64,000 bases of DNA, taken from NCBI GenBank assembly GCA_017395935.1, contig JAFQNL010000019.1, positions 1 to 64,000 on the forward strand, in the 5' to 3' direction. Source of the DNA: Oscillospiraceae bacterium (GTDB taxonomy: Bacteria > Bacillota > Clostridia > Oscillospirales > Oscillospiraceae). A program made the translations under genes and the position numbers. Shown here piece by piece: positions 1-19,435 of the stretch; the stretch's first letter is position 1, and each line of letters opens with the position of its first letter. The notes under the pieces are model-generated. The model searched no databases, was not told the origin of the DNA, and was given only the letters and a program-made list of their open reading frames with translations.

Positions 1-1323
1 CTGAGTGGCCAACTCGGCGCCCAGCACGTTGTCGGAAGCGATCTGGCAGTCGATCTCAACGCCGTTGACAGCGCGGTCCACGGAGATAACCCGGACGCCC
101 TGTGCCTGAGCGTACTCCACAGCACCGGTAACGGCGTCAGAGTCCACGGGGTTAACGATGAGCACGCTGATGCCCTTGGCAACCAGGTCCTCGATGTCGC
201 TGACCTGCTTGGTCACGTCATCGCCGGCATCGGCGATGGACAGCGTCACGCCGGCCTCGGCAGCGGCCTTCTCGGCGCCCTCAGCCAGAGTGACGAAGAA
301 GGGGTTGTTCTGAGTGGAGACAGACAGGCCGATAGAGCCGTTGCCCACGATCTCAATCTTTGCAGCGGGAGCAGCGTAGGTTTCGACGTTCTCGGCGGTG
401 ACCAGAGTCACTTCAACAGGGATGGCAGCAGGAATGGCTTCACCATTGATGAGCTTGATGGCGTTGTCAACAGCGGCCTTACCGATCAGAGCGGGCTGCT
501 GAGCGATAGTGGCAGCCATGCGGCCGGCCTTGATGGCCTCGATGGCGTCATTAGTGGCGTCAAAGCCCACGACCATGATGTCCTTGCCGGCGCCGGCAAT
601 GGCCTCAACGGCGCCCAGAGCCATCTCGTCATTGGCGGCGAAGACAGCCTGAATGTCACCGTGAGCCTGGAGCATATTCTCCATAACGCTCATGCCCTTG
701 GTACGGTCAAAGTTGGCGGTCTGGTTGGCAACCACGCTCAGCTTGGAGTCGGCGATGTTGTGGAAGCCGGCAGAGCGGTCGATAGCGGCAGAAGCGCCGG
801 GAGTGCCTTCCAGCTCGGCAACCTTAATGCCCTCGCCCAGAGTGTCTACAATGTACTGGGTAGCCAGTTCGGCACCGGCCACGTTGTCGGAAGCGATCTG
901 GCAGTCGATCTCAACGCCGTTGACAGCGCGGTCGACAGAGATGACCTTGACGCCCTTGGCCTTTGCAGCCTCTACGGCGCCGGTGACAGCGTCAGAGTCC
1001 ACGGGGTTAACGATGAGCACGCTGATGCCCTTAGAAACCAGGTCCTCGATATCGCTGGTCTGCTTGGTTACGTCGTCGCCGGCATCAACCACAGACAGCT
1101 CGACACCGGCCTCGGCAGCGGCCTTCTCAGCGCCTTCAGCCAGAGTGACGAAGAAGGGGTTGTTCTGGGTGGAGATAGACAGGCCGATGGTGCCGCTGGC
1201 AGCGTTGGTATTGTTCTTTGCGGGCAGATTTTCCTCGCCGTCGATGGTAATACGGCAGGCGGTCAATGACAGAGTCATTGCAATGCACATGATCAGTGCG
1301 ATCAGTTTCTTCAGCTTCTTCAT
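1..1323 (-). CDS. rbsB: Ribose-binding lipoprotein with tandem duplicated binding domain (partial)
   Basis: Substrate-binding component of the ribose ABC importer; 441 codons are present and the gene runs off the left edge. The ATG at 1323 begins MKKLKKLIALIM, a lipoprotein signal with lipobox SLTAC (Cys around residue 21). Residues about 43-322 form a complete RbsB-like periplasmic-binding domain with the family's signatures NNPFF, NPVDSDAV, SVDRAVN, IASDNV, FDRTKG, ANDEMALGA and GFDAT. From about residue 328 the same domain starts again in frame, offset exactly 855 bp (285 codons), after a short linker. The copies are roughly 88% identical in the compared DNA, so they are related by duplication but have diverged. 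It is the last visible gene of the rbs operon, 20 bp after rbsC. Whether a third domain or a stop follows is outside the window. Identity as a ribose binder is strong; the reason for the double domain is unknown. Confidence 0.93.
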   Translation of the reverse strand, partial: MKKLKKLIALIMCIAMTLSLTACRITIDGEENLPAKNNTNAASGTIGLSISTQNNPFFVTLAEGAEKAAAEAGVELSVVDAGDDVTKQTSDIEDLVSKGISVLIVNPVDSDAVTGAVEAAKAKGVKVISVDRAVNGVEIDCQIASDNVAGAELATQYIVDTLGEGIKVAELEGTPGASAAIDRSAGFHNIADSKLSVVANQTANFDRTKGMSVMENMLQAHGDIQAVFAANDEMALGAVEAIAGAGKDIMVVGFDATNDAIEAIKAGRMAATIAQQPALIGKAAVDNAIKLINGEAIPAAIPVEVTLVTAENVETYAAPAAKIEIVGNGSIGLSVSTQNNPFFVTLAEGAEKAAAEAGVTLSIADAGDDVTKQVSDIEDLVAKGISVLIVNPVDSDAVTGAVEYAQAQGVRVISVDRAVNGVEIDCQIASDNVLGAELATQ

Positions 1324-1343: not shown

Positions 1344-2321
1344 TTAGCGCTTGCTGTCAGCCAGCACGGCGACCAGAATAACGATGGCTTTGATAACGTC
1401 CTGATAGTAGGAGGTAACGCCCAGAATGTTCAGGCCGTTGGACAGGACGGCGATAATGAGAACGCCGGCCACGGTGCCGGTGATCTTGCCGCGGCCACCG
1501 CTCATGCTGGTGCCGCCCAGAGCGACAGAGGCGATGGCGTCCAGCTCATAGCCTTCGCCCAGAGTGGGCTGAGCGGAGTCAACACGGGAGATCATCATCA
1601 GACCAGCCAGAGCAGACAGGAAGCCGGAGATGGCATAGACAGACAGTTTGATCTTGGCGGTATCTACGCCTACCAGCTGAGCGCACTTGGCATTGCTGCC
1701 GGTGGCGTAGATGCGGCGGCCATAGGTGGTGTGGTTGAGGATGAAGTAGAACAGGACGAAGAACAGAACCAGAATGATGGCGGGCAGGGGGATCTTGATG
1801 GTTTCGGCGATGAGCAGGTTGCCCTTGCCCAGAGCCTTGAAGAAGAAGGAGCCGCCCTCAGAAGTGATGGAGTTTGCCAGACGGGAGATGGGCTTGCCGT
1901 CGGTGAGGATCATGGCAATACCGCGATAGGCCAGCTGGGTAATCAGAGTTGCGATAAAGGCCTGCAGACGGCACTTGGCCACCAGGAAGCCGCTGATGAA
2001 GCCCAGCAGGGTGCCGGCGGCCAGAGCGATCAGAACGCAGGCCAGAGCGGGCACACCCATAATAATGAGCTCAGCGCAGATAATGGCGCTCAGAGCGAAG
2101 ACGGAGCCGACGGACAGGTCGATGCCGTCAGAAAGAATGACGCAGGTCATACCGATAGCGATCAGGCCGTTGAAGGCTGCCTGACGGAGCAGGTTGAGCA
2201 GATTGCTGAGCTGACGGAACTCAGGGCTGATCACACTCAGCAGGATGACCAGAATCAGAAGAGCGATAAACGCGCCATACTGGCCGATCAGCGCGCCGAT
2301 GTTTTTGTTACCTTTTTTCAT
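1344..2321 (-). CDS. rbsC: Ribose ABC transporter permease RbsC
   Basis: Membrane channel of the ribose importer (325 aa, the usual family length). It is hydrophobic throughout, with many predicted transmembrane helices, and carries the family segments GMTCVILSDGIDLSVGSV near residues 57-74 and the cytoplasmic loop ASVALGGTSMSGGRG near 265-280, which contacts the ATPase. The ATG at 2321 overlaps the end of rbsA by 4 bp (ATGA), indicating translational coupling, and a GGGAGG ribosome binding site precedes it. The context rbsD-rbsA-rbsC-rbsB fixes the assignment. Confidence 0.95.
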   Translation of the reverse strand: MKKGNKNIGALIGQYGAFIALLILVILLSVISPEFRQLSNLLNLLRQAAFNGLIAIGMTCVILSDGIDLSVGSVFALSAIICAELIIMGVPALACVLIALAAGTLLGFISGFLVAKCRLQAFIATLITQLAYRGIAMILTDGKPISRLANSITSEGGSFFFKALGKGNLLIAETIKIPLPAIILVLFFVLFYFILNHTTYGRRIYATGSNAKCAQLVGVDTAKIKLSVYAISGFLSALAGLMMISRVDSAQPTLGEGYELDAIASVALGGTSMSGGRGKITGTVAGVLIIAVLSNGLNILGVTSYYQDVIKAIVILVAVLADSKR

Positions 2322-3805
2322 GACAAACTTCCTCCCGTGGCCAACGTCATAACTTTTGCCTGATCTGCCTCAGCGGCGTCAATAATGCCGGTCACATGAC
2401 CCTCGTGGACGACCATGATACGGTCGCTCATGCCCAGAACCTCGGGCAGTTCGGAGGAGACCATGATGACGGCCACACCGTTGGCGGCCAGGTCGTTGAT
2501 CACACTGTAAATTTCTTTCTTAGCGCCGATGTCCACGCCGCGCGTGGGTTCGTCCAGGATCAGGATCTTGGGATCGGTGTAGATCCACTTGGCAAGAACG
2601 ACCTTCTGCTGGTTGCCGCCGGAGAGGTTGCCGCATTCGTGCTGGGGACCGAAGCAGCGGATGTGGAACTCCTCGATGCCCCGCTTGACCAGATCCAGAG
2701 CCTTCTTCTTGGACAGAACGCTCTTGTTGGAGACCTTACCAAGGTTTGCGATCTCAATGTTCTCGGCGATGCTCTTTTCCAGCAGCAGACCCTCTGTCTT
2801 TCTGTCTTCGGTAATGAAGCCGATGCCGGCCTTAATGGCCTCCTGAGGATTGCGGATGGTGGCCTTGATGCCGTCGATCCAGATCTTGCCGGCGGTGGTG
2901 GGAAGAACGCCGAAGATGGCCTGCATGATCTCGGTGCGGCCAGCGCCCATCAGACCTGACACGCCCAGAACCTCGCCGGCGTGTACGGTAAAGGAGACGT
3001 CCTTAAAGTACTTTTCATGGCTCAGACCCTCTACCCGGAGGACTTCCATGCCGATCTCGCAGTCGCGCTTGGGATAGCGCTCGCCGATCTCGCGGCCGAT
3101 CATCATCTGGACGACGTCGTCCATGGTGATGTCCTTGATGTACTTGGTGTCGATATACTGACCGTCACGGAGGATGGTGATCCGGTCACAGAGCTCGAAA
3201 ATCTCCTCCATACGGTGGGAGATATAAACGATGGAAACACCCTTGGCCCGGAGAGAATTGATGACCTCGAAGAGGACCTCGGTTTCACTCTGAGTCAGAG
3301 CAGCGGTGGGCTCGTCCATAATCAGCACCTTGGCATCTACCATCAGTGCCTTGCAGATTTCCACCATCTGCTGCTGGCCAACGGACAGTTCGGACATGAC
3401 TGCGTCCACGGGGATATGAACGCCCATCTTGTCCATCACTTCCTGGGCCTTGGCCCGCATAGCCTTCTTGTCACAGATGCCGAAGCCCTTGGTGATTTCC
3501 TTACCCATAAAGAGGTTCTCTTCGACAGTCAGATCGAAGAGAGAGTTGATCTCCTGATAGATAAAGACGATGCCGGCCTTCTCGGCCTCCTGAGGGCTCT
3601 TGTAGACGACTTCCTGTCCGTCGACCAGAACGGTGCCGGCGTCGCGGGTATAGACGCCGGTGAGAATCTTCATCAGCGTAGACTTACCAGCGCCGTTTTC
3701 GCCCATAAGGGCGTGGATCTCGCCGTCCTTCAGGAAGAAGCCGGCGTCTTTCAATACCTGATTTGTGCCAAAGGACTTGTCAATGCCCTTCATCTCGATA
3801 TTCAT
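2318..3805 (-). CDS. rbsA: Ribose ABC transporter ATP-binding protein RbsA
   Basis: Double-cassette ATPase that powers ribose import at the inner face of the membrane (495 aa, typical for RbsA/MglA). The N-terminal cassette has Walker A GENGAGKST, signature LSVGQQQ and Walker B LIMDEPTAAL. The C-terminal cassette has a degenerate Walker A (GLMGAGRTE), signature LSGGNQQK and Walker B LILDEPTRGVD; this asymmetry is standard in the family. The stop overlaps the rbsC start by 4 bp and the start lies 20 bp after rbsD. Confidence 0.95.
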   Translation of the reverse strand: MNIEMKGIDKSFGTNQVLKDAGFFLKDGEIHALMGENGAGKSTLMKILTGVYTRDAGTVLVDGQEVVYKSPQEAEKAGIVFIYQEINSLFDLTVEENLFMGKEITKGFGICDKKAMRAKAQEVMDKMGVHIPVDAVMSELSVGQQQMVEICKALMVDAKVLIMDEPTAALTQSETEVLFEVINSLRAKGVSIVYISHRMEEIFELCDRITILRDGQYIDTKYIKDITMDDVVQMMIGREIGERYPKRDCEIGMEVLRVEGLSHEKYFKDVSFTVHAGEVLGVSGLMGAGRTEIMQAIFGVLPTTAGKIWIDGIKATIRNPQEAIKAGIGFITEDRKTEGLLLEKSIAENIEIANLGKVSNKSVLSKKKALDLVKRGIEEFHIRCFGPQHECGNLSGGNQQKVVLAKWIYTDPKILILDEPTRGVDIGAKKEIYSVINDLAANGVAVIMVSSELPEVLGMSDRIMVVHEGHVTGIIDAAEADQAKVMTLATGGSLS

Positions 3806-3825: not shown

Positions 3826-4230
3826 TCAGGCAAAGATACAGCCGGACTGCAAAATAATATTTGCATACGGAGTGGTCTCGCCAGTTCTGATGACTGCCTT
3901 GCAGTCGTGGGTCAGTGCTTTCAGTTGGGTGTGAGAGACAAACTCGGTCTCCACGTCCTGGTCGGCAAAGAGGGCCTTTACCTGCTCCAGGACCTGGGGA
4001 TTCTGGGTCTTGATCTCCTCGGCCAGGATAATCTTCTCGATCTTCATGTCTCCGGCGACCACTTCCAGCGTACGCATAAAGGTGGGCTCGCCGAAGGTCA
4101 GAGCCAGATCGATCCGCTCTACCTCGTCGGGGATGGGGAGACCGCAGTCACCGATGGCGAGAAGGTCCGTGTGGCCCATGTAGGACAACACCCGGGAGAT
4201 CTCGCTGTTCAGGATACCTGCTCTTTTCAT
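3826..4230 (-). CDS. rbsD: D-ribose pyranase RbsD
   Basis: Interconverts the pyranose and furanose forms of D-ribose after uptake. The 134-residue protein begins MKRAGILNSEISRVLSYMGHTD and has the family motifs GLPIP near residues 30-34, ALTFGEPTF near 44-52 and the C-terminal signature GETTPYANIILQSG. A TTG two codons upstream is possible, but the ATG at 4230 gives a 4-bp ATGA overlap with rbsR and a suitably spaced AAAGG site, so it is preferred. Its presence shows that the operon is for ribose rather than another sugar. Confidence 0.94.
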   Translation of the reverse strand: MKRAGILNSEISRVLSYMGHTDLLAIGDCGLPIPDEVERIDLALTFGEPTFMRTLEVVAGDMKIEKIILAEEIKTQNPQVLEQVKALFADQDVETEFVSHTQLKALTHDCKAVIRTGETTPYANIILQSGCIFA

Positions 4231-5222
4231 TTGCAACTACCTTTCTTCTTTGTTGTTTCACGTACAGTCAGGGTGACGGGAAATACGATCTCAACTCCTT
4301 TCTCAGTAGTTTTCTCATTGTCAATGATCAGCTCCATAGCCTTGGTTGCCATTCTCTGGATCGGCTGAGTGATCGTTGTCAACTCCGGCGAGATCAGGCT
4401 TGCCCACTCAATATCATCAAACCCAATCAGCTGGATCTGGTCCGGCACCGAGATGTGCTTGCGGTGCAGGATTTTATAGGTGGAGATGGCTACCACGTCG
4501 TTGCAGGCGATGATGCCATCTACCCCAGGGAAGGTCTCCAGCAACTGTTCTGTCATTGCCAGACCTGCCTTGAAGTCATAGTCACAGGTGACCGTCTGCT
4601 CCCGGAGCCCGTGCTCTCTGCAGACGTCCCGATAACCCTCGTAACGGGCTTTGGCGCTGAAAATACGCTGGGGACCCTTGATGCAGACGATGTTTTTGCA
4701 GCCGCATTCGATCAGATGCTCTGCAGCCATTCGTCCGCCGGCGTAGTAGTCGCAGTAGACATAGGCGTCGATCCGCTTGGTGGCAAAGAGAGAGTCGATG
4801 GCTACCACCGGGATCTGGCACATGGCCGCGTAGTCCTGAATAGCCTCGTTGGTGGAGGCGATAATGACGCCGTCGGCGTTCATAGCTACCAGTGTCTGCA
4901 GAGCGATCTCTTCCTTCTCAATGTCGTCGCCCACGTCGCATAAAAATACCCGGTAACCATGCTCAGTGGCCATGTGCTCAATGATGCTTGCTACCTGAGT
5001 AAAGTAAGGGTTCTTAATGCTGGGGATGATCAGACCGATCAACTTGGCCGATTTCCGATAAAGGCTTCTTGCCACCTCGTTGGGTACAAAGTCGGTGGCG
5101 GTGATCGCCTGAAGGACCCGAGCCCGCTTTTCTGCGGAGACTCTGGCGGTCCCGTTAATCACACGGGAAACGGTTGCAGGGGAGACGCCGGCCATCTTGG
5201 CCACCTCTCTGATGTTGATCAT
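4227..5222 (-). CDS. rbsR: LacI-family ribose operon repressor RbsR
   Basis: Transcriptional regulator, first gene of the rbs operon. From the ATG at 5222 (331 aa) it begins MINIREVAKMAGVS; the helix-turn-helix covers about residues 4-23 and a hinge helix lies near 45-60, followed by a periplasmic-binding-type effector domain. The GTG at 5231 would sit directly on the ribosome binding site (acaggag), whereas ATG 5222 lies 8 nt downstream of GGAG. Expected to release its operator on binding ribose or a phosphorylated derivative (family knowledge). A perfect 7-2-7 inverted repeat lies just downstream of its own promoter, implying autoregulation of the whole operon. Confidence 0.92.
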   Translation of the reverse strand: MINIREVAKMAGVSPATVSRVINGTARVSAEKRARVLQAITATDFVPNEVARSLYRKSAKLIGLIIPSIKNPYFTQVASIIEHMATEHGYRVFLCDVGDDIEKEEIALQTLVAMNADGVIIASTNEAIQDYAAMCQIPVVAIDSLFATKRIDAYVYCDYYAGGRMAAEHLIECGCKNIVCIKGPQRIFSAKARYEGYRDVCREHGLREQTVTCDYDFKAGLAMTEQLLETFPGVDGIIACNDVVAISTYKILHRKHISVPDQIQLIGFDDIEWASLISPELTTITQPIQRMATKAMELIIDNEKTTEKGVEIVFPVTLTVRETTKKKGSCK

Positions 5223-5271
5223 AGCATTCACTCCTGTTTCAAGTGTTTCAAAAAATGTAACGTTTCATAGT

Positions 5272-11824: not shown

Positions 11825-14800
11825 TTGAAACACGTTTGGAAACGGGGCGGGGCCCTGCTGATGGCTTTTGCTATGCTCCTGTCTCTGCTCCCGGCACCCG
11901 TCTTTGCCGCCGAGCTGGAGGAAGAACTGCCCCTGACTGAGGAAGAACTGTCTGATCCTCCTGTCTCAGAAGAGAGCTCCGTCGAGACAATTGTGGATGC
12001 GGATATGGAATCTTCTGATATGGATCTTCCTGATCAGCCGGACGAGGAAGAAGTGTGCGTCCTGTCGGAAGATGCAGAGGAAGAAACGGACGAAGTGCCC
12101 GGAGCAGGGGAGGAGACTGTCCTCGCTCAGAATATTTCGGGTACCGTTCGGGAGGCTGTGCCGGCGAGCCAGGGATATGCTACCGCTCAATACATCAATC
12201 CGATTTATGCCGATGTACTGGGCGATGAACTTCCTGAAGTTGTTCATAGCGGCACGGCGCTGGCTGAATTGGAGACCTACTATGACTCTGTCTATGAGCT
12301 GAGCGTTGCTCTGCGGGAGGGCATGAAGGATCGTACTGAGACGATCTCGCTGGGTTACACCTGCTCTGCCTTTGACGAGGAGATCCTGAACGAGGTCTTC
12401 TATGACAGCGTTTACACCGCGGTTGACCATACCGGCATTCCGACTGAGGGCGACTATCTCTTCTTCCAGTTTGGTGGCGCTCGGGTAGAGGCTAGCTGGA
12501 GTGCCAGTGAAGGCGTCTACTATGTAGAGATGGTCTACTACGTCACTTACTACACCACCGCCGCTCAGGAAAATGAGATGAACACGGCTGTGGATCAGCT
12601 GCTGAGCCAACTGGACCTGGATGGCAGTACCGAGTATGAGAAAATCAAGGGAGTCTATGACTATATCTGCAGTAACGTCACCTACGACTACGATAATCTG
12701 GAAGATGACGATTATCTGCTCAAGTACAGCGCTTATGCCGGCCTGGTCAACGGCACTGCCGTCTGTCAGGGCTACGCTGTGCTGTTCTATCGGCTTATGC
12801 TGGAGCTGGGCGTAGATGCCCGTGTGATTGCCAGCATCGAGTCCGAGAACCATGCCTGGAATATCGTCGGTCTGGACGGACTGTATTATAATCTGGACGC
12901 TACCTGGGACGCCGGTATTTCTTCGGAGAGATATGCCTATTTCCTTCTCTGTCCCACCACCTTTGGCAAGGATCATACCCGGAGCGAGGAGTATGACTCT
13001 GCTGAATTTCACGATGCCTATCCCATGGCCGAAGCTGACTATGGCAGCAGCGAGGGCGGAGGCGAAGGTGGAGGTGGAGATGAAGGTGGAGACGACGAGG
13101 AAGAGGATCTCTTCCCCGGTGCCAGCGGCACCTGTGACAATGGCTTTGCCTGGGTTATCGACACCAAGGGTACCCTGACCATCTCCGGTACCGGTCCTAT
13201 GGAAGACTATAGCACGACCGACCTCCCTCCCTGGCGGGAAGAGGCATATAAGCCCTACGTTCGGAGCGCAATTGTCGGCGAGGGGATTACCTCGGTGGGT
13301 GAATATGCCTTCTGTTATCTGACAGAGCTGAGCCAGATCACTCTGCCCTCTACCATCGAAACCATCGGTACTTATGCCTTCGGCTATACTTCTCTGGAGG
13401 GACTGACCATTCCTGAGGGTGTTACCGAGCTGCCGGTCAGTATGTGTGCCGACACTCAGCCCCTGACCACGGTCGTTCTGCCCTCTACGCTGGTGACTAT
13501 CGGTAATCATGCCTTCTCCAGCTGTGACGGGCTGACGAATATCAACTTCCCCGCCGGACTTACCACCATTGGGGAAGGAGCCTTCTTTACCTGTAGCAAG
13601 CTGAATAATATCGTCCTGCCCACATCCCTTGTTTCGATCGGTGAGTCTGCCTTTGCCTCCTGCAAGAGCTTGACTTCCATCGCCATTCCGGACGGGATTA
13701 CCACGCTGCCGGATGGCCTGCTCTCCAACTGCACCGCCCTGACCGAGGTGAAGCTGCCTGAGAGCCTTAAGACCATTGGCAACGATGTCTTTACCTATTG
13801 TACTGCGCTGCCTACTCTGGAGCTGCCAGACGGTCTTACCGGAATCGGAATCTCCTGCTTTATCAACTGCACCTCTCTGGAGCGGATTGAGATTCCCGGC
13901 GGCGTTGCCGCTCTGGGCAACAGTACCTTCCTCCACTGCACCGCTCTGGAATCGATTACCTTGAACGAGGGACTCCAAACGCTGGGCAACCAGACCTTCG
14001 GTGCCTGCGAGCGTTTGAAGGAGATCACTCTGCCCTCCACGGTGACCAAGCTGGACACCATGCTCTTCTATGGCTGTGACGCTCTGGCCAAGGTCACCTT
14101 CCTGGGCAGCGCGCCTTCCATCGGTGATGCGACCTTCAACGGCGTCACCTGTCAGGCTTGGTATCCCTATGGCGACAGCAGCTGGACCTCTGACGTCTGT
14201 AAGAACTACGGAGGCACCATCAGCTGGAATGAGACCGCTGCCATAATTGCCAGCGGCAGCTGTGGACAGAGCGTCAACTGGACACTGGATTCCAATGGCC
14301 TTCTGAACATCACCGGCTCCGGCGATATGGACGACTTTGAGGCGGGTGCGCCCTGGCAGAGCTATATCAGCCAGATCAAGACGGTTCAGATTTCCTCCGG
14401 CGTAACCTCGGTCGGTGAGTATGCCTTCTCTGATTCCATTGCCCTGACAGAGGTTATCCTGCCTGAGGGGCTTACCTGCGTGAGCTACTCTGCTTTTATG
14501 GGCTGTCCCATGCTGGAGAGCGTAGAGCTTCCTTCTACGGTAACTGTACTGGAAGACAACGCCTTCCGAAACTGCACCAGACTGACCTCCGCTAAGCTTG
14601 ACTGCGCCGTTACCGCTATTTTGAGCGGCACCTTTGCCGGCTGCTCGGCCCTGACGGAAGTAATCCTGCCCGACGGACTGGTCTCTCTGGAGCGGGAGAG
14701 CTTTGCTGACTGCGCTGAACTGACTGGAATAACGCTGCCTGAGGGACTTGAGACTCTGGGCGTGAGCTGCTTCAAAAACTGTGTCGGTCTGACCGAGATC

Positions 14801-17800
14801 CGCCTCCCTGAGAGTGTCACCTATATTGGCGGCTCCGCCTTCTCCGGATGTACCGCTCTGACCAGCATTAATATTCCTGAGGGTGTTACTGCGATTAACT
14901 CCGACCTCTTCTACGGTTGTACCGGACTGACCAGTCTCCAGCTTCCTGAGTCTGTGAATGTGATCCTGAACAGAGCCTTCTCCGGCTGCACCGGTCTCAG
15001 TGAGATCACTATGCCCAAGACGCTCTCGACGCTGGGCGAGCGGGCTTTCTATGAGTGCGAAAAGCTGACGTCTATTGTGGTCCCTGAGGGGATCACCCAG
15101 ATCAACGGGGCGACCTTCTCCGATTGTTCTGCTCTGGCTGATGTGAGGCTGCCGGAAGGCCTGACTGCCATCGGCACCAGCGCTTTTTCCGGGTGTACAG
15201 CACTGACTACTGTCGCTCTGCCTGAGAGTCTTGAGACCATTGGAAACTCTGCCTTCTCCGGCTGCTTTGGCCTTACTGCTATCACCTTCCATAAAAATCT
15301 CACCTCCATTGAAACAAAAGCCTTCTACCTGAACACTGACCTGACTCAGATTACCTTCCTTGGCGCGGCTCCTGCAATTAGCAGCGATGCGTTCTACAGA
15401 GTGGAAGCTACCGTTAACTATCCCGGCCATACCTCCTGGACAGCCGACGTCCGCCAGAATTACGGCGGCACTCTGACCTGGAATCTGGTCTGTACCGAGC
15501 ATACACCTGCTGAGGCAGTGGAAGAGAACTGGGTGGAGTCTACCTGTACGGTTCCCGGCAGCTATGATAGCGTGATCTGCTGCGCGATCTGCAGCACTGA
15601 GATCAGCCGGGAGAAGAAAGCGCTTCCTCTGGCTGACCACGAGCCCGGTCAGGCGGTAGAGGAGAACCGGAATGAACCCACCTGCACGGTTCCCGGCAGC
15701 TATGACAGTGTGATCTGCTGCGCCGTTTGCGATCAGGAGCTGAGTCGGCAGACTGTAACCATCGCTGTTGTCCCGCACACTGCCGGCGAGACTGTGAAGG
15801 AAAAGGAAGTGGCTCCCGCCTGCGGAAAAACCGGCAGCTATGACAGCGTCGTTTACTGCAGTGTCTGTGGCTCTGAGATCAGCCGTGTTACCGAGACGGT
15901 ACCGGCGCTGGAGCATATTCCCGGCGATCCTGTAACAGAAGGTTACGAGCCGCCTACCTTCAGTAAGAAGGGCAGCTATGACAGCGTGACCTACTGTACT
16001 CGCTGCGGTGCCGAACTGAGCCGAGAGGCTGTCTGGATTGATGAACTTGAGTATGTCAGCCAAACGATGGAAAACGGCTTTGCGTGGAGTCTGAATGCGG
16101 CAGGCGCGCTCATCCTCTCCGGCCCCGGTATGGCTGATGAGATGCCCTGGCTGGACTACGCCGATCATATCGTCTCTCTGACCGTGGGCGATCAGGTTGT
16201 TGGAATCTCCTCCAACAGCTTTGCCGGCTGTGTGAATCTGAAAAAAATTCAGTTCCTGGGCGATGCCCCTCTGCTGGAAGAGGACTGCTTCGCCGGTCTG
16301 AATGCCGATGCCTGCTTCTATGCGGTTAAGAACGGCTGGACCGACGATGTGCTTCAGGATTATGGCGGTAATATTGTCTGGACCCGGATTTTGCCCGATC
16401 TGGTCATGCTGGATACACCTGAGCTTGTCAGCGTTGAGACAACCCAGGAGACCCTCTCCTCCGGCATCACTACCGTCTTTGTCAGCCTCCAGTGGCAGCC
16501 GGTGGAAGGTGCCGCGGCCTATGAGATCTACCGCAGAAGCGGGGAGACTGACTGGGAGCTGGTGGGCTATTCTGACAGCGCCTCTTACCGGGACAACTTC
16601 CCGGACGTAGGTGTTGAGTACACCTATACTGTTGCCTGTGAGGATGTCTACGGCCGTACCTGCAGCGATTATGACCCTGACGGTATCAGCCATTTCTATC
16701 CTTCCGGCAGCTGCGGCGAGGAAGTGAGTTGGAAGATCACCTCTGCCGGTGAGCTTCAGATTTCTGGTGTCGGTGCCATGAACGCCGATGGTTACGATAT
16801 GGAGCTGACGCCCTGGTATCATCTGCGCGGCGAGATTCGCTCTGCTCGTGTGGAGGAAGGGGTTACCCATCTCTCTGCCTATGCCTTCCAGGGCTGCACG
16901 GAAATGACCTCCGTCACCCTTGCGAACTCCATCACTTCCATCGGTCAGTGCGCGTTCTTCCATTGCCCCGGCCTGACTTCGGTGAACCTGCCTGACGGAA
17001 TTACAGAGATTGGCTATCGTACCTTCTATCTCTGTACCGGTCTGAGCGAACTGTCTATTCCTGCTGGAGTCACTGCGATTGGAGAGGGCGCCTTTGACGG
17101 CTGTTCCGCACTGAGCGAGATCCAGCTTCCTGAAGGCCTGACCCAGCTGGGTAAGTCGGCATTCGGCGGCTGTAAGCGCCTGACGGAGATTGTGATTCCT
17201 GCTGGGATCACGCAGATTGCCCCCAATACCTTCTACAGCTGTACCGGCCTGAAGTCAATTGCCCTGCCTGAAGAGCTGACTGAGATTGGCAGCTACGCTT
17301 TTGCCAACTGCTATCAGCTGGCCGAACTGGAACTGCCCGAGGGAACGGAGAGACTGGATGAGGGCGCCCTGCTTAACTGCCGAAGCCTGACTGAACTGAC
17401 CATTCCCGCTGCTGTTGTAAGTCTGGGGGAAGAGGTCTTCCTTGGCTGCGAGAATCTGAGCAAGGTCATCTTCCTGGGCTCTGTACCGGAAGGAAGCGCA
17501 TGGTTTGGCGATCAGCGGTGCCAGATTATTTTCCCTGAACAGCTGCGGGATGAGTGGATGGCTCTGGACCTGTCTACCATCGGCTCTCAGGCCTACCGCG
17601 GACAGCTGGAAGCCCCTGAACTCACCAAGGCCTCCGGCGCTTCGACTGGAATTACCCTCCAGTGGACTCAGGTGGCCGATGCCAGAGGATACTATATCTA
17701 TCGAGGCACCAGCACCGACGCAATGCGGCAGATTGGCTCTGTAAGCGGCTCTGATACCCTTACCTATCGGGACGCATCTGCCTCCTCCGGCGTAGCTTAC

Positions 17801-19435
17801 TTCTATCAGGTGGCTGCCTGCGCTGAAGGGGGCGAAGTCGGCGAGAAGAGCGAGGCTGTGAAATCCGCCATTCTTGCCAACCCTGTCCTTAGCTCTGCGG
17901 CCAATGCCTATGGCGGCGTCAAGGTGAGCTGGAAATCGGTGTCCGGAGCAGAGAGATACCAGCTCTGGCGAAAGACTGCCGATACCGGCTGGAAGAAGGT
18001 GGGCTCTCAGGTGGCCGATACCGTCACTGTAGACGCAACTGCCGAGAGCGGGGTTAAGTACACCTATACTGTCCGGGCCCATACCGGCCTTGCCCAGAGT
18101 GGATACGACAAGACGGGCAAGAGTGTTCTCTATCTGGAAGCTCCTGAGGTCAGTAAGCTGGAAAACAAGACCAACGGCATGAAGGTGACATGGAATACTG
18201 TGGCCGGAGCCAAGAGCTACCAGCTCTGGCGAAAGACAGAGACTACCGGCTGGAAGAAGGTAGGCAGCCCTGTGACTGCCGCCAATACAGTGGACACCAC
18301 CGCGGTAAGCGGCACCACTTATTTCTATACCGTTCGTGCCATCAATGGTTCTGTTCAGAGTTCCTACAACAATACCGGCTTTTCCGGTTACTTCCTGGCA
18401 TCGCCCACGCTCAAGAGCGCGTCGAACGTAGCTTCCGGTGTCAATGTGACTTGGAACGCTGTGGATGGCGCAGAGAGCTATCAGCTCTGGCGAAAGGTAA
18501 GCGGTGGAAAGTGGGGTAAGTTGGGGACTCCCGTTTCCGGTATCAGCGCTGTGGATACAACTACTGAGTCCGGCGTGACCTATGTCTATACGGTCCGTGC
18601 GGTAAAGGGTGACGTTCAGAGCGGCTACTTCACCAGTGGAGTGACCAGCTGCTATCTGGCAGCGCCCGAGTTGACGGTCAGCGGAGCGACCGGAAAGGTA
18701 ACCGTGAAGTGGACGGCCAGCGAAGGCTGCACCGGCTACCATATCTACCGAAAGACGACCGGCAGCTATACCAAAATCGCTTCGTTGGCAGCCGGAAAGA
18801 GCAGCTACACAGACTCTTCTGTGACCAACGGAACGCTGTATACCTACAAGATTCAGGCGTACAAGGGCAGCTACCTGAGCGCCGCTGTGACGGCTGTCGG
18901 TAAGCCTCTGGCAACACCCACTCTGTCCAAGGTAAGCAACGCTGCCGATGGCGTTAAGGTGACCTGGAAAGCAGTTACTGGAGCTGCCAGCTACCAGCTT
19001 TGGCGTAAGACCGCTGATACAAGCTGGAAGAAGGTTGGCACTCAGGTAACCGGCACCAGCGCAGTGGATACTACCGCTGAGAGCAATGTAAAGTATACTT
19101 ATACCGTCCGGGCTCATTATGGAAGCAGCCAGAGTGGCTATAATAAGACTGGCCTTACCATTCATTATCTGGCGACTCCCACCCTTCTGAGTGCGGAAAA
19201 TACCGGTAATGGTATCCGTATCGTCTGGGAGGAAGTAGTCGGCGCAGAGAGCTATCAGCTTTGGCGCAAGACTACAGACACCGGCTGGAAGAAGGTGGGC
19301 AGTCCTGTGACCGGAAGCAGCACCGTGGATGCTTCCGCACAGTCCGGTGTGAACTATTATTACACCGTCCGTGCCATCTCCGGCTCTGTTCAGAGTTCCT
19401 ACCACACGCCCGGCATCAGCTGCGAAGCAGACTGA
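11825..19435 (+). CDS. Giant secreted protein: transglutaminase-like, BspA-type LRR, Cys repeats, FnIII
   Basis: Secreted 2,536-residue multidomain protein. A TTG start (AAAGGA 9 nt upstream) leads into a signal peptide ending PAPVFA (cleavage near residue 28), then an acidic stretch to about 110. A transglutaminase-like domain spans about 270-365 with a plausible Cys-His-Asp triad: C314 (AVCQGYA), H343 (ENHAWN), D358 (NLDATWD). A Gly/Glu/Asp linker (about 407-431) follows, then BspA/LRR_5-type leucine-rich blocks at about 432-805, 810-1219, 1408-1520 (short) and 1628-1892, each opened by a module of the SGSCG...W.ITSAGELQISG type. Residues about 1222-1412 hold four Cys-rich repeats centred on GSYDSV. 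One fibronectin III domain is near 1532-1620 and seven are packed at about 1930-2535 with recurring SYQLWRKT and GWKKVG. No LPXTG motif, SLH domain or C-terminal membrane helix is visible. Probable surface adhesin or matrix protein; function unknown. Confidence 0.93.
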   Translation: MKHVWKRGGALLMAFAMLLSLLPAPVFAAELEEELPLTEEELSDPPVSEESSVETIVDADMESSDMDLPDQPDEEEVCVLSEDAEEETDEVPGAGEETVLAQNISGTVREAVPASQGYATAQYINPIYADVLGDELPEVVHSGTALAELETYYDSVYELSVALREGMKDRTETISLGYTCSAFDEEILNEVFYDSVYTAVDHTGIPTEGDYLFFQFGGARVEASWSASEGVYYVEMVYYVTYYTTAAQENEMNTAVDQLLSQLDLDGSTEYEKIKGVYDYICSNVTYDYDNLEDDDYLLKYSAYAGLVNGTAVCQGYAVLFYRLMLELGVDARVIASIESENHAWNIVGLDGLYYNLDATWDAGISSERYAYFLLCPTTFGKDHTRSEEYDSAEFHDAYPMAEADYGSSEGGGEGGGGDEGGDDEEEDLFPGASGTCDNGFAWVIDTKGTLTISGTGPMEDYSTTDLPPWREEAYKPYVRSAIVGEGITSVGEYAFCYLTELSQITLPSTIETIGTYAFGYTSLEGLTIPEGVTELPVSMCADTQPLTTVVLPSTLVTIGNHAFSSCDGLTNINFPAGLTTIGEGAFFTCSKLNNIVLPTSLVSIGESAFASCKSLTSIAIPDGITTLPDGLLSNCTALTEVKLPESLKTIGNDVFTYCTALPTLELPDGLTGIGISCFINCTSLERIEIPGGVAALGNSTFLHCTALESITLNEGLQTLGNQTFGACERLKEITLPSTVTKLDTMLFYGCDALAKVTFLGSAPSIGDATFNGVTCQAWYPYGDSSWTSDVCKNYGGTISWNETAAIIASGSCGQSVNWTLDSNGLLNITGSGDMDDFEAGAPWQSYISQIKTVQISSGVTSVGEYAFSDSIALTEVILPEGLTCVSYSAFMGCPMLESVELPSTVTVLEDNAFRNCTRLTSAKLDCAVTAILSGTFAGCSALTEVILPDGLVSLERESFADCAELTGITLPEGLETLGVSCFKNCVGLTEIRLPESVTYIGGSAFSGCTALTSINIPEGVTAINSDLFYGCTGLTSLQLPESVNVILNRAFSGCTGLSEITMPKTLSTLGERAFYECEKLTSIVVPEGITQINGATFSDCSALADVRLPEGLTAIGTSAFSGCTALTTVALPESLETIGNSAFSGCFGLTAITFHKNLTSIETKAFYLNTDLTQITFLGAAPAISSDAFYRVEATVNYPGHTSWTADVRQNYGGTLTWNLVCTEHTPAEAVEENWVESTCTVPGSYDSVICCAICSTEISREKKALPLADHEPGQAVEENRNEPTCTVPGSYDSVICCAVCDQELSRQTVTIAVVPHTAGETVKEKEVAPACGKTGSYDSVVYCSVCGSEISRVTETVPALEHIPGDPVTEGYEPPTFSKKGSYDSVTYCTRCGAELSREAVWIDELEYVSQTMENGFAWSLNAAGALILSGPGMADEMPWLDYADHIVSLTVGDQVVGISSNSFAGCVNLKKIQFLGDAPLLEEDCFAGLNADACFYAVKNGWTDDVLQDYGGNIVWTRILPDLVMLDTPELVSVETTQETLSSGITTVFVSLQWQPVEGAAAYEIYRRSGETDWELVGYSDSASYRDNFPDVGVEYTYTVACEDVYGRTCSDYDPDGISHFYPSGSCGEEVSWKITSAGELQISGVGAMNADGYDMELTPWYHLRGEIRSARVEEGVTHLSAYAFQGCTEMTSVTLANSITSIGQCAFFHCPGLTSVNLPDGITEIGYRTFYLCTGLSELSIPAGVTAIGEGAFDGCSALSEIQLPEGLTQLGKSAFGGCKRLTEIVIPAGITQIAPNTFYSCTGLKSIALPEELTEIGSYAFANCYQLAELELPEGTERLDEGALLNCRSLTELTIPAAVVSLGEEVFLGCENLSKVIFLGSVPEGSAWFGDQRCQIIFPEQLRDEWMALDLSTIGSQAYRGQLEAPELTKASGASTGITLQWTQVADARGYYIYRGTSTDAMRQIGSVSGSDTLTYRDASASSGVAYFYQVAACAEGGEVGEKSEAVKSAILANPVLSSAANAYGGVKVSWKSVSGAERYQLWRKTADTGWKKVGSQVADTVTVDATAESGVKYTYTVRAHTGLAQSGYDKTGKSVLYLEAPEVSKLENKTNGMKVTWNTVAGAKSYQLWRKTETTGWKKVGSPVTAANTVDTTAVSGTTYFYTVRAINGSVQSSYNNTGFSGYFLASPTLKSASNVASGVNVTWNAVDGAESYQLWRKVSGGKWGKLGTPVSGISAVDTTTESGVTYVYTVRAVKGDVQSGYFTSGVTSCYLAAPELTVSGATGKVTVKWTASEGCTGYHIYRKTTGSYTKIASLAAGKSSYTDSSVTNGTLYTYKIQAYKGSYLSAAVTAVGKPLATPTLSKVSNAADGVKVTWKAVTGAASYQLWRKTADTSWKKVGTQVTGTSAVDTTAESNVKYTYTVRAHYGSSQSGYNKTGLTIHYLATPTLLSAENTGNGIRIVWEEVVGAESYQLWRKTTDTGWKKVGSPVTGSSTVDASAQSGVNYYYTVRAISGSVQSSYHTPGISCEAD

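Follow-up and report, generated by a model that had tools for sequence, protein, structure and literature searches.

The rbsB gene at the start of this contig encodes a predicted lipoprotein that carries RbsB-type domains in tandem, likely three of them, and that probably works as an anchored string of ribose-binding domains, likely raising the number of such domains per translocator. The window, meaning the whole 64,000-nucleotide stretch of DNA that was analysed, holds the 5' part of the gene. Ordinary RbsB (E. coli 1dbp/2dri; T. tengcongensis 2ioy) has the same type of domain, the same 11 ribose contacts and an rbs operon context, but consists of one domain of ~270 residues, whereas the tandem proteins described here have two to four per polypeptide. 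The first-pass annotation had set this architecture apart from single-domain RbsB, and the tandem domains found bear it out. The 11 contacts, taken from the E. coli RbsB structure, are N13, F15, F16, D89, R90, R141, F164, N190, F214, D215 and Q235.

The rbsB gene, its contig break and its operon

The rbsB frame (5' part of the tandem gene, 1..1323) lies on the minus strand, starts with an ATG at 1323 that has GGAG 10 nt upstream, and is open through to window base 1, where the contig ends. All its parts are on the minus strand. A predicted lipoprotein signal peptide with a lipobox (LTAC; 1255..1323, Cys codon 1255-1257) is followed by a complete RbsB domain 1 (385..1194, local profile positions 2-271; PF13407), a 14-aa linker between the profile matches that ends in the shared VGNG motif (343..384), and the N-lobe half of domain 2 (1..342, local profile positions 1-114). 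An alignment of 20 three-domain proteins shows no variation at the lipobox Cys, C23. A direct repeat pairs 1-300 with 856-1155 at an offset of exactly 855, and the DNA of the copies is 86 % identical (0.861 over 113 codons). PF13407 hits the window protein in two stretches in a Pfam search, and the NCBIfam RbsB model NF007936 scores 393.6 bits summed over two stretches (cut-off 337 bits), with single RbsB domains at 302-306 bits each, below the cut-off.

Frame and repeat comparison thus agree with the first-pass description of one lipoprotein signal, tandem RbsB domains and an 855-bp offset. Its frame at 1..1323 is real but is read on the minus strand from ATG 1323, and its figure of about 12 % DNA difference between the copies is replaced by a measured 14 %. 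It had also stated that both copies keep the sugar-binding motifs; the contacts are conserved, but the window holds only the N-lobe half of copy 2, which covers five of the 11 contact residues.

Contig C6, from an assembly of 2.07 Mb in 46 contigs, begins at window base 1, which is therefore no gene end. Contig C33 of the same genome ends within an rbsB-like gene, the inferred continuation of rbsB (L008:9707-11083, minus strand; profile match). In this piece, a C-lobe half-domain (profile positions 111-271) is followed by a 25-residue linker and a full RbsB domain, and then by the stop codon and rbsK. The C6 and C33 ends share a 13-base overlap, and no match above 29 % identity was found on the other contigs of this genome. 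A near-identical complete counterpart from another assembly, P0014, is encoded by a single frame of 895 aa on a contig of 55 kb; its residues 1-441 are 99.77 % identical to the C6 part and residues 438-895 are 99.78 % identical to the C33 part. Because the two contig ends are matched by a complete protein at 99.8 % identity, the full rbsB of this strain most likely has three RbsB domains; the tandem first annotated stands, with its count of two most likely raised to three. No stop that would split the copies into separate genes is present in the C6 and C33 pieces or in P0014. Since contigs can break inside the tandem, RbsB counts and assemblies may be wrong at the rbs locus.

An AlphaFold2 model of P0014 (20 aligned sequences) has three confident domains, with a mean pLDDT of 80.6 and a pTM of 0.41. 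The pLDDT drops below 50 at the linkers (318-323 and 604-619), across the lipobox and tether region (17-43) and in two short loops within domains (463-465 and 758-762); the relative placement of the three domains is not predicted by the model. The best PDB match of the model in Foldseek is the T. tengcongensis ribose-binding protein, 2ioy.

Upstream of rbsB, also on the minus strand, are rbsC (permease, 1344..2321; PF02653; best NCBIfam model ribose permease, 328 bits, cut-off 398), rbsA (ATP-binding subunit with two ABC domains, 2318..3805; PF00005 twice; NCBIfam RbsA 588 bits, cut-off 745), rbsD (D-ribose pyranase, 3826..4236; PF05025; NCBIfam 180 bits, above its threshold of 93) and, upstream-most, the LacI-family regulator rbsR (4227..5231; PF00356 and PF13377; NCBIfam RbsR 243.5 bits, cut-off 382). 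One permease gene and one rbsA are seen in this operon. It is cut at its 3' end, and rbsK adjoins the rbsB piece on C33; the rbsK genes of relatives are 73-84 % identical to it. The operon order is most likely rbsR-D-A-C-B-K, shared by many relatives. Ribose is the probable ligand of the predicted tandem. Elsewhere in the window, a 2536-aa frame (11825-19435) begins with a signal-like sequence and contains long repeats; on visual inspection it resembles a surface protein of leucine-rich (BspA-like) and fibronectin type.

Tandem RbsB in related and distant genomes

Tandem RbsB is a recurrent trait, with two to four domains per protein. Among the best 80 of 520 confirmed named loci, 27 hold complete multi-domain frames (three three-domain and 24 two-domain), five more have multi-domain frames truncated at a contig end, and the remaining 48 have a single domain. 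Chance is excluded because domains of ~270 residues, 80-97 % identical within one protein, recur in these 27 complete frames. A protein search with a three-domain query returned 1783 hits at E 1e-50 (7999 candidates scored); the best 120, including the query's own record, comprise 60 two-domain proteins, 59 three-domain proteins (among them P0077, which has only two full-length domain matches) and one four-domain protein (P0001, 1172 aa). A lax lipobox pattern precedes the first domain in 119 of these 120, the exception being P0077, with no residues before its first match. A second search added 119 new proteins among the matches listed, 70 with two domains and 49 with three (one partial). Its two-domain proteins include some named Helicovermis profundi, Petrocella and Fusibacter, and two of its three-domain proteins are named Chloroflexota / Anaerolineales.

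In wide draws tandem RbsB is rare and a single domain is the rule, so the tandem is not required. Across 391 genomes of the class, with two candidates scored per genome, 18 others match at E 1e-80, of which 17 lie in frames of 302-358 aa and one, in the one-contig genome G392, is a two-domain protein identical to the Helicovermis profundi record P0124. A draw of 398 genomes from the phylum gave 46 further RbsB matches, spread over 43 genomes besides this one, and none of their frames falls outside 299-365 aa. Among 31 other genomes of the same genus, some incomplete, identity above 50 % was found only in G006 and G009, whose matching frames do not exceed 355 aa and so cannot accommodate a tandem.

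Several proteins depart from the common plan. P0229 (739 aa) has a two-domain RbsB in frame with an RbsC permease end and a lipobox-like stretch between them, and is either a real RbsC-RbsB fusion or the result of a lost stop. Three Chloroflexota-like three-domain proteins (P0121, P0127 and P0162) appear by eye to begin with a long acidic, proline-rich stretch and to have one membrane helix in place of the lipobox. The two-domain RbsB of two loci named Phascolarctobacterium (L064:5986-7770 and L065:5068-6849) lacks a Cys where the lipobox normally lies, and its linker differs. A 643-aa frame in G057 of the same order (L012:910-2838) has two diverged sugar-binding domains and is unlike the RbsB tandems.

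Linkers span 12-28 aa. The first linker has 13-14 aa in 57 of the 59 three-domain and 29 of the 60 two-domain proteins, and GNG or GDG occurs in every linker of the best 120 proteins, usually as VGNGSIGL. Other linkers are carried by L058/L060 and L064/L065, and linkers differ among the gut, Helicovermis and Chloroflexota-like groups. On a 95-row domain tree these three groups lie apart with single-domain proteins between them; support is good for 45 of its 90 inner branches, and parsimony requires at least six state changes. Some loci were left out of this tree, as were 37, mostly single-domain, from a first domain tree to keep it small; in that first tree L009, a very long and badly placed branch, was not used. 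Short domain pieces of L062, L067, L071 and L074 were dropped from the first tree and the contact counts, and the window and C33 pieces were kept. Because the tree separates the groups, tandem RbsB appears to have at least three origins, in gut Clostridia, in Helicovermis/Petrocella/Fusibacter and in Chloroflexota.

The second of these groups gives the closest comparison by architecture. Petrocella atlantisensis P0203 and Helicovermis profundi P0124 also have two RbsB domains in one predicted lipoprotein, but differ from the window's group in forming a separate clade of the domain tree, in their linkers and, for Helicovermis, in gene order. P0203 is annotated 'ribose ABC transporter (ribose-binding lipoprotein) (modular protein)', and a search of open-licence PMC papers found no description of a permease-free tandem RbsB. 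In the named-locus set, rbsK follows rbsB in 27 of 27 complete tandem operons versus 28 of 47 single-domain operons. The Helicovermis order is rbsR-rbsK-rbsD-rbsA-rbsC-rbsB, and gene order fails to explain the tandem trait because rbsK there precedes the transporter genes and rbsB comes after rbsC. At L085 (5824-7665), rbsR is directly followed by an N-terminally shortened rbsB, and no rbsD, rbsA or rbsC is seen in the locus. Three loci named Fibrobacter (L058, L060 and L082) have an rbs operon whose RbsA is 86 % identical to that of the window, and represent either inter-phylum transfer or mis-binned contigs.

Apparent equivalence and turnover of the copies

The 11 contacts are conserved whichever position a domain holds; two substitutions (N190H and D215E) occur among 368 multi-domain rows, which overlap between loci and proteins and from which the gaps of partial rows were set aside. 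A second set of 287 domain rows also has two (F214L and Q235L). Under a 70 % rule, the 59 three-domain proteins show only four position-specific columns, of which three lie at domain edges and none is one of the 11 contacts. Within-protein dN/dS is 0.08-0.33 (26 comparisons). The kept contacts and low dN/dS agree with the earlier view that the second copy is not a decayed remnant, and a decayed or specialised second copy is rejected on the same grounds.

Synonymous divergence was compared in 20 multi-domain loci or pieces and eight hand-picked species pairs, three of which include L042. The dS between the copies of one protein is below the same-position dS between species in seven of the eight pairs, the exception being L038/L040; shared codon usage also lowers dS within a genome. 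For L042/L043 and L064/L065 the protein tree groups domains by position despite the lower within-protein dS. The first domain tree groups domains at depth by protein or species group, and those of close kin by position. Conversion-like tracts, scored as the longest run of identical synonymous codons with pairs that have a piece under 300 nt (L062, L067 and L074) dropped, were reached by none of 2000 shuffles in five of 37 within-protein pairs (two of the five, those of L058 and L060, coming from close kin) and by 4-17 of 2000 in three further pairs, while none of 16 between-species controls fell under 145 of 2000; assembler merging of similar repeats may account for part of these tracts. The window's own copies have no significant tract (146 of 2000), and copy 2 against the last C33 domain gives 74 of 2000. 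The copies look homogenised, neither specialised nor decaying. Unequal recombination between domains is the probable source of new copies, and gene conversion probably keeps them alike.

Domain number itself changes among close relatives. The three-domain L038 and the two-domain L039 are close kin, and the second domain of L039 begins like D2 and ends like D3; this is compatible with L039 as a contraction of L038, and also with assembler collapse. L082, with one domain, finds no support as a deletion product of L058/L060: it shares only 80-81 % DNA identity with each copy and combines sites from the two.

Such lability is what would be expected if copy number simply drifts, with in-frame duplications arising easily, having (nearly) neutral effects and being kept alike by recombination with no gain in transport. 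Numbers from one to four domains, at least seven state changes on the RbsA tree of 49 operons, identical RbsA rows in L058 (two domains) and L082 (one), and the kinship of L038 and L039 all fit this reading, and we allow it a modest share of the probability. Purely neutral copies should decay, however, and here nearly every domain retains the contacts, dN/dS is low and the trait is found in three separate groups. A different account makes position rather than number the point: outer domains would catch ribose at the cell-wall face and pass it inwards. With domains in series on one anchor, domain 3 could lie furthest from the membrane, and the linkers are of 12-28 aa and modelled with low confidence, but the scarcity of position-specific residues and the missing lipobox Cys in L064/L065 speak against it, and we regard it as unlikely.

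Two further explanations carry still less weight. Each copy might bind a different pentose or a different form of ribose, and the domains of one protein do differ by 3-20 % in sequence; with the same contacts at each position and copies that appear homogenised, this is very improbable. The tandem might also be a mis-assembled repeat, given that the contig breaks within it and that exact runs of up to 126 nt are shared by window copy 2 and C33. The window copies nevertheless differ by 14 % in DNA, and an artefact is ruled out, to the point of negligible residual doubt, by P0014 on a different contig, the 27 complete frames and the two-domain gene of G392.

Binding-domain number in ribose import

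We favour the reading in which tandem RbsB is a lipid-anchored string of equivalent ribose-binding domains that would serve one RbsA-RbsC importer. It would likely raise both the number of binding domains per translocator and their local concentration; the domains would dock on RbsC one at a time, and the gain would lie in dosage and proximity rather than in a new specificity. The raised local supply of ligand proposed in the first-pass annotation is plausible and agrees with this reading. With rbsB downstream of the translocator genes, multiplying the domain may be a simple way to more binding sites per chain.

ABC importers reportedly have one, two or four binding sites each, according to a 2002 review. 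OpuA resembles the tandem in having more than one substrate-binding domain per complex, and its binding domains presumably belong to a different fold class. In PMC11065425, OpuA has two such domains, one on each of two transmembrane domains, whereas the tandem here is permease-free; the same paper estimates an apparent concentration of ~4 mM for the tethered domain near its partner. According to a section of PMC8025302, SBPs in Gram-positives are lipid-anchored or tethered to the translocator, and the tandem domains of GlnPQ bind largely independently. Independent binding and a comparable effective concentration could likewise apply to tandem RbsB. GlnPQ, which the first-pass annotation had offered as an analogy, also has serial substrate-binding domains, with a linker of 14 aa in GlnP (same section), close to the 13-14 aa of many first linkers here. 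The analogy holds for how a tandem could work, but not for membership: in GlnPQ the domains have different specificities and form one polypeptide with the permease, whereas the tandem has a gene of its own for a predicted lipoprotein, whose domains look equivalent and can number three or four. Since rbsB and rbsC are separate frames, a GlnPQ-type permease fusion is ruled out for the window gene.

Passages of PMC9045158 describe cellulolytic Clostridia in which SBPs are made in excess over translocators, often through a hairpin after a 5' SBP gene; one 3' SBP gene there is raised by its own promoter, and a downstream rbsB therefore need not lack other means of raised expression. On the dosage reading, tandem operons would be expected to lack a hairpin after rbsB that could raise the level of single-domain RbsB. 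In the rbs operons, a hairpin of -10 kcal/mol or below follows rbsB in 17 of 28 single-domain operons with rbsK next versus seven of 27 tandem operons (seven of the 24 two-domain operons), and the median rbsB-rbsK gap is 18 nt in tandem versus 62.5 nt in single operons. GC-rich hairpins of -22 to -33 kcal/mol, often CCTG...CAGG, lie between single-domain rbsB and rbsK in L075, L077, L078, L087, L097 and their kin, all Ruminococcus/Oscillospiraceae MAGs. The tree set comprised 54 operons with both traits, 49 of them with a usable RbsA, and left out L085 and contig-cut frames; in it a hairpin is present in five of 25 tandem versus 15 of 24 single operons. The contrast did not hold after correction on the RbsA tree of 49 operons, which gave four supported independent pairs and p values of 0.25-1. 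The raw contrast is largely that of one lineage, because 13 of the 15 single operons with a hairpin share one RbsA clade of Ruminococcus/Oscillospiraceae MAGs. We offer only tentatively, as a possibility with less than even support, that poly-RbsB is a separate route to SBP excess, distinct from raising transcript or translation, in which two to four interchangeable domains per chain and anchor, with at least three origins and kept uniform by conversion, would replace the mRNA hairpin of single-domain kin.

It is a long-standing question why some ABC importers have a single binding domain per complex and others two or more, and permease-fused systems such as GlnPQ and OpuA have been its main subjects. 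Closely similar operons here offer a natural series of one to four domains that look equivalent and are free of the permease, in which domain number can be told apart from fusion and specificity. Such a series would allow a direct test of how uptake scales with the number of binding domains per anchor.
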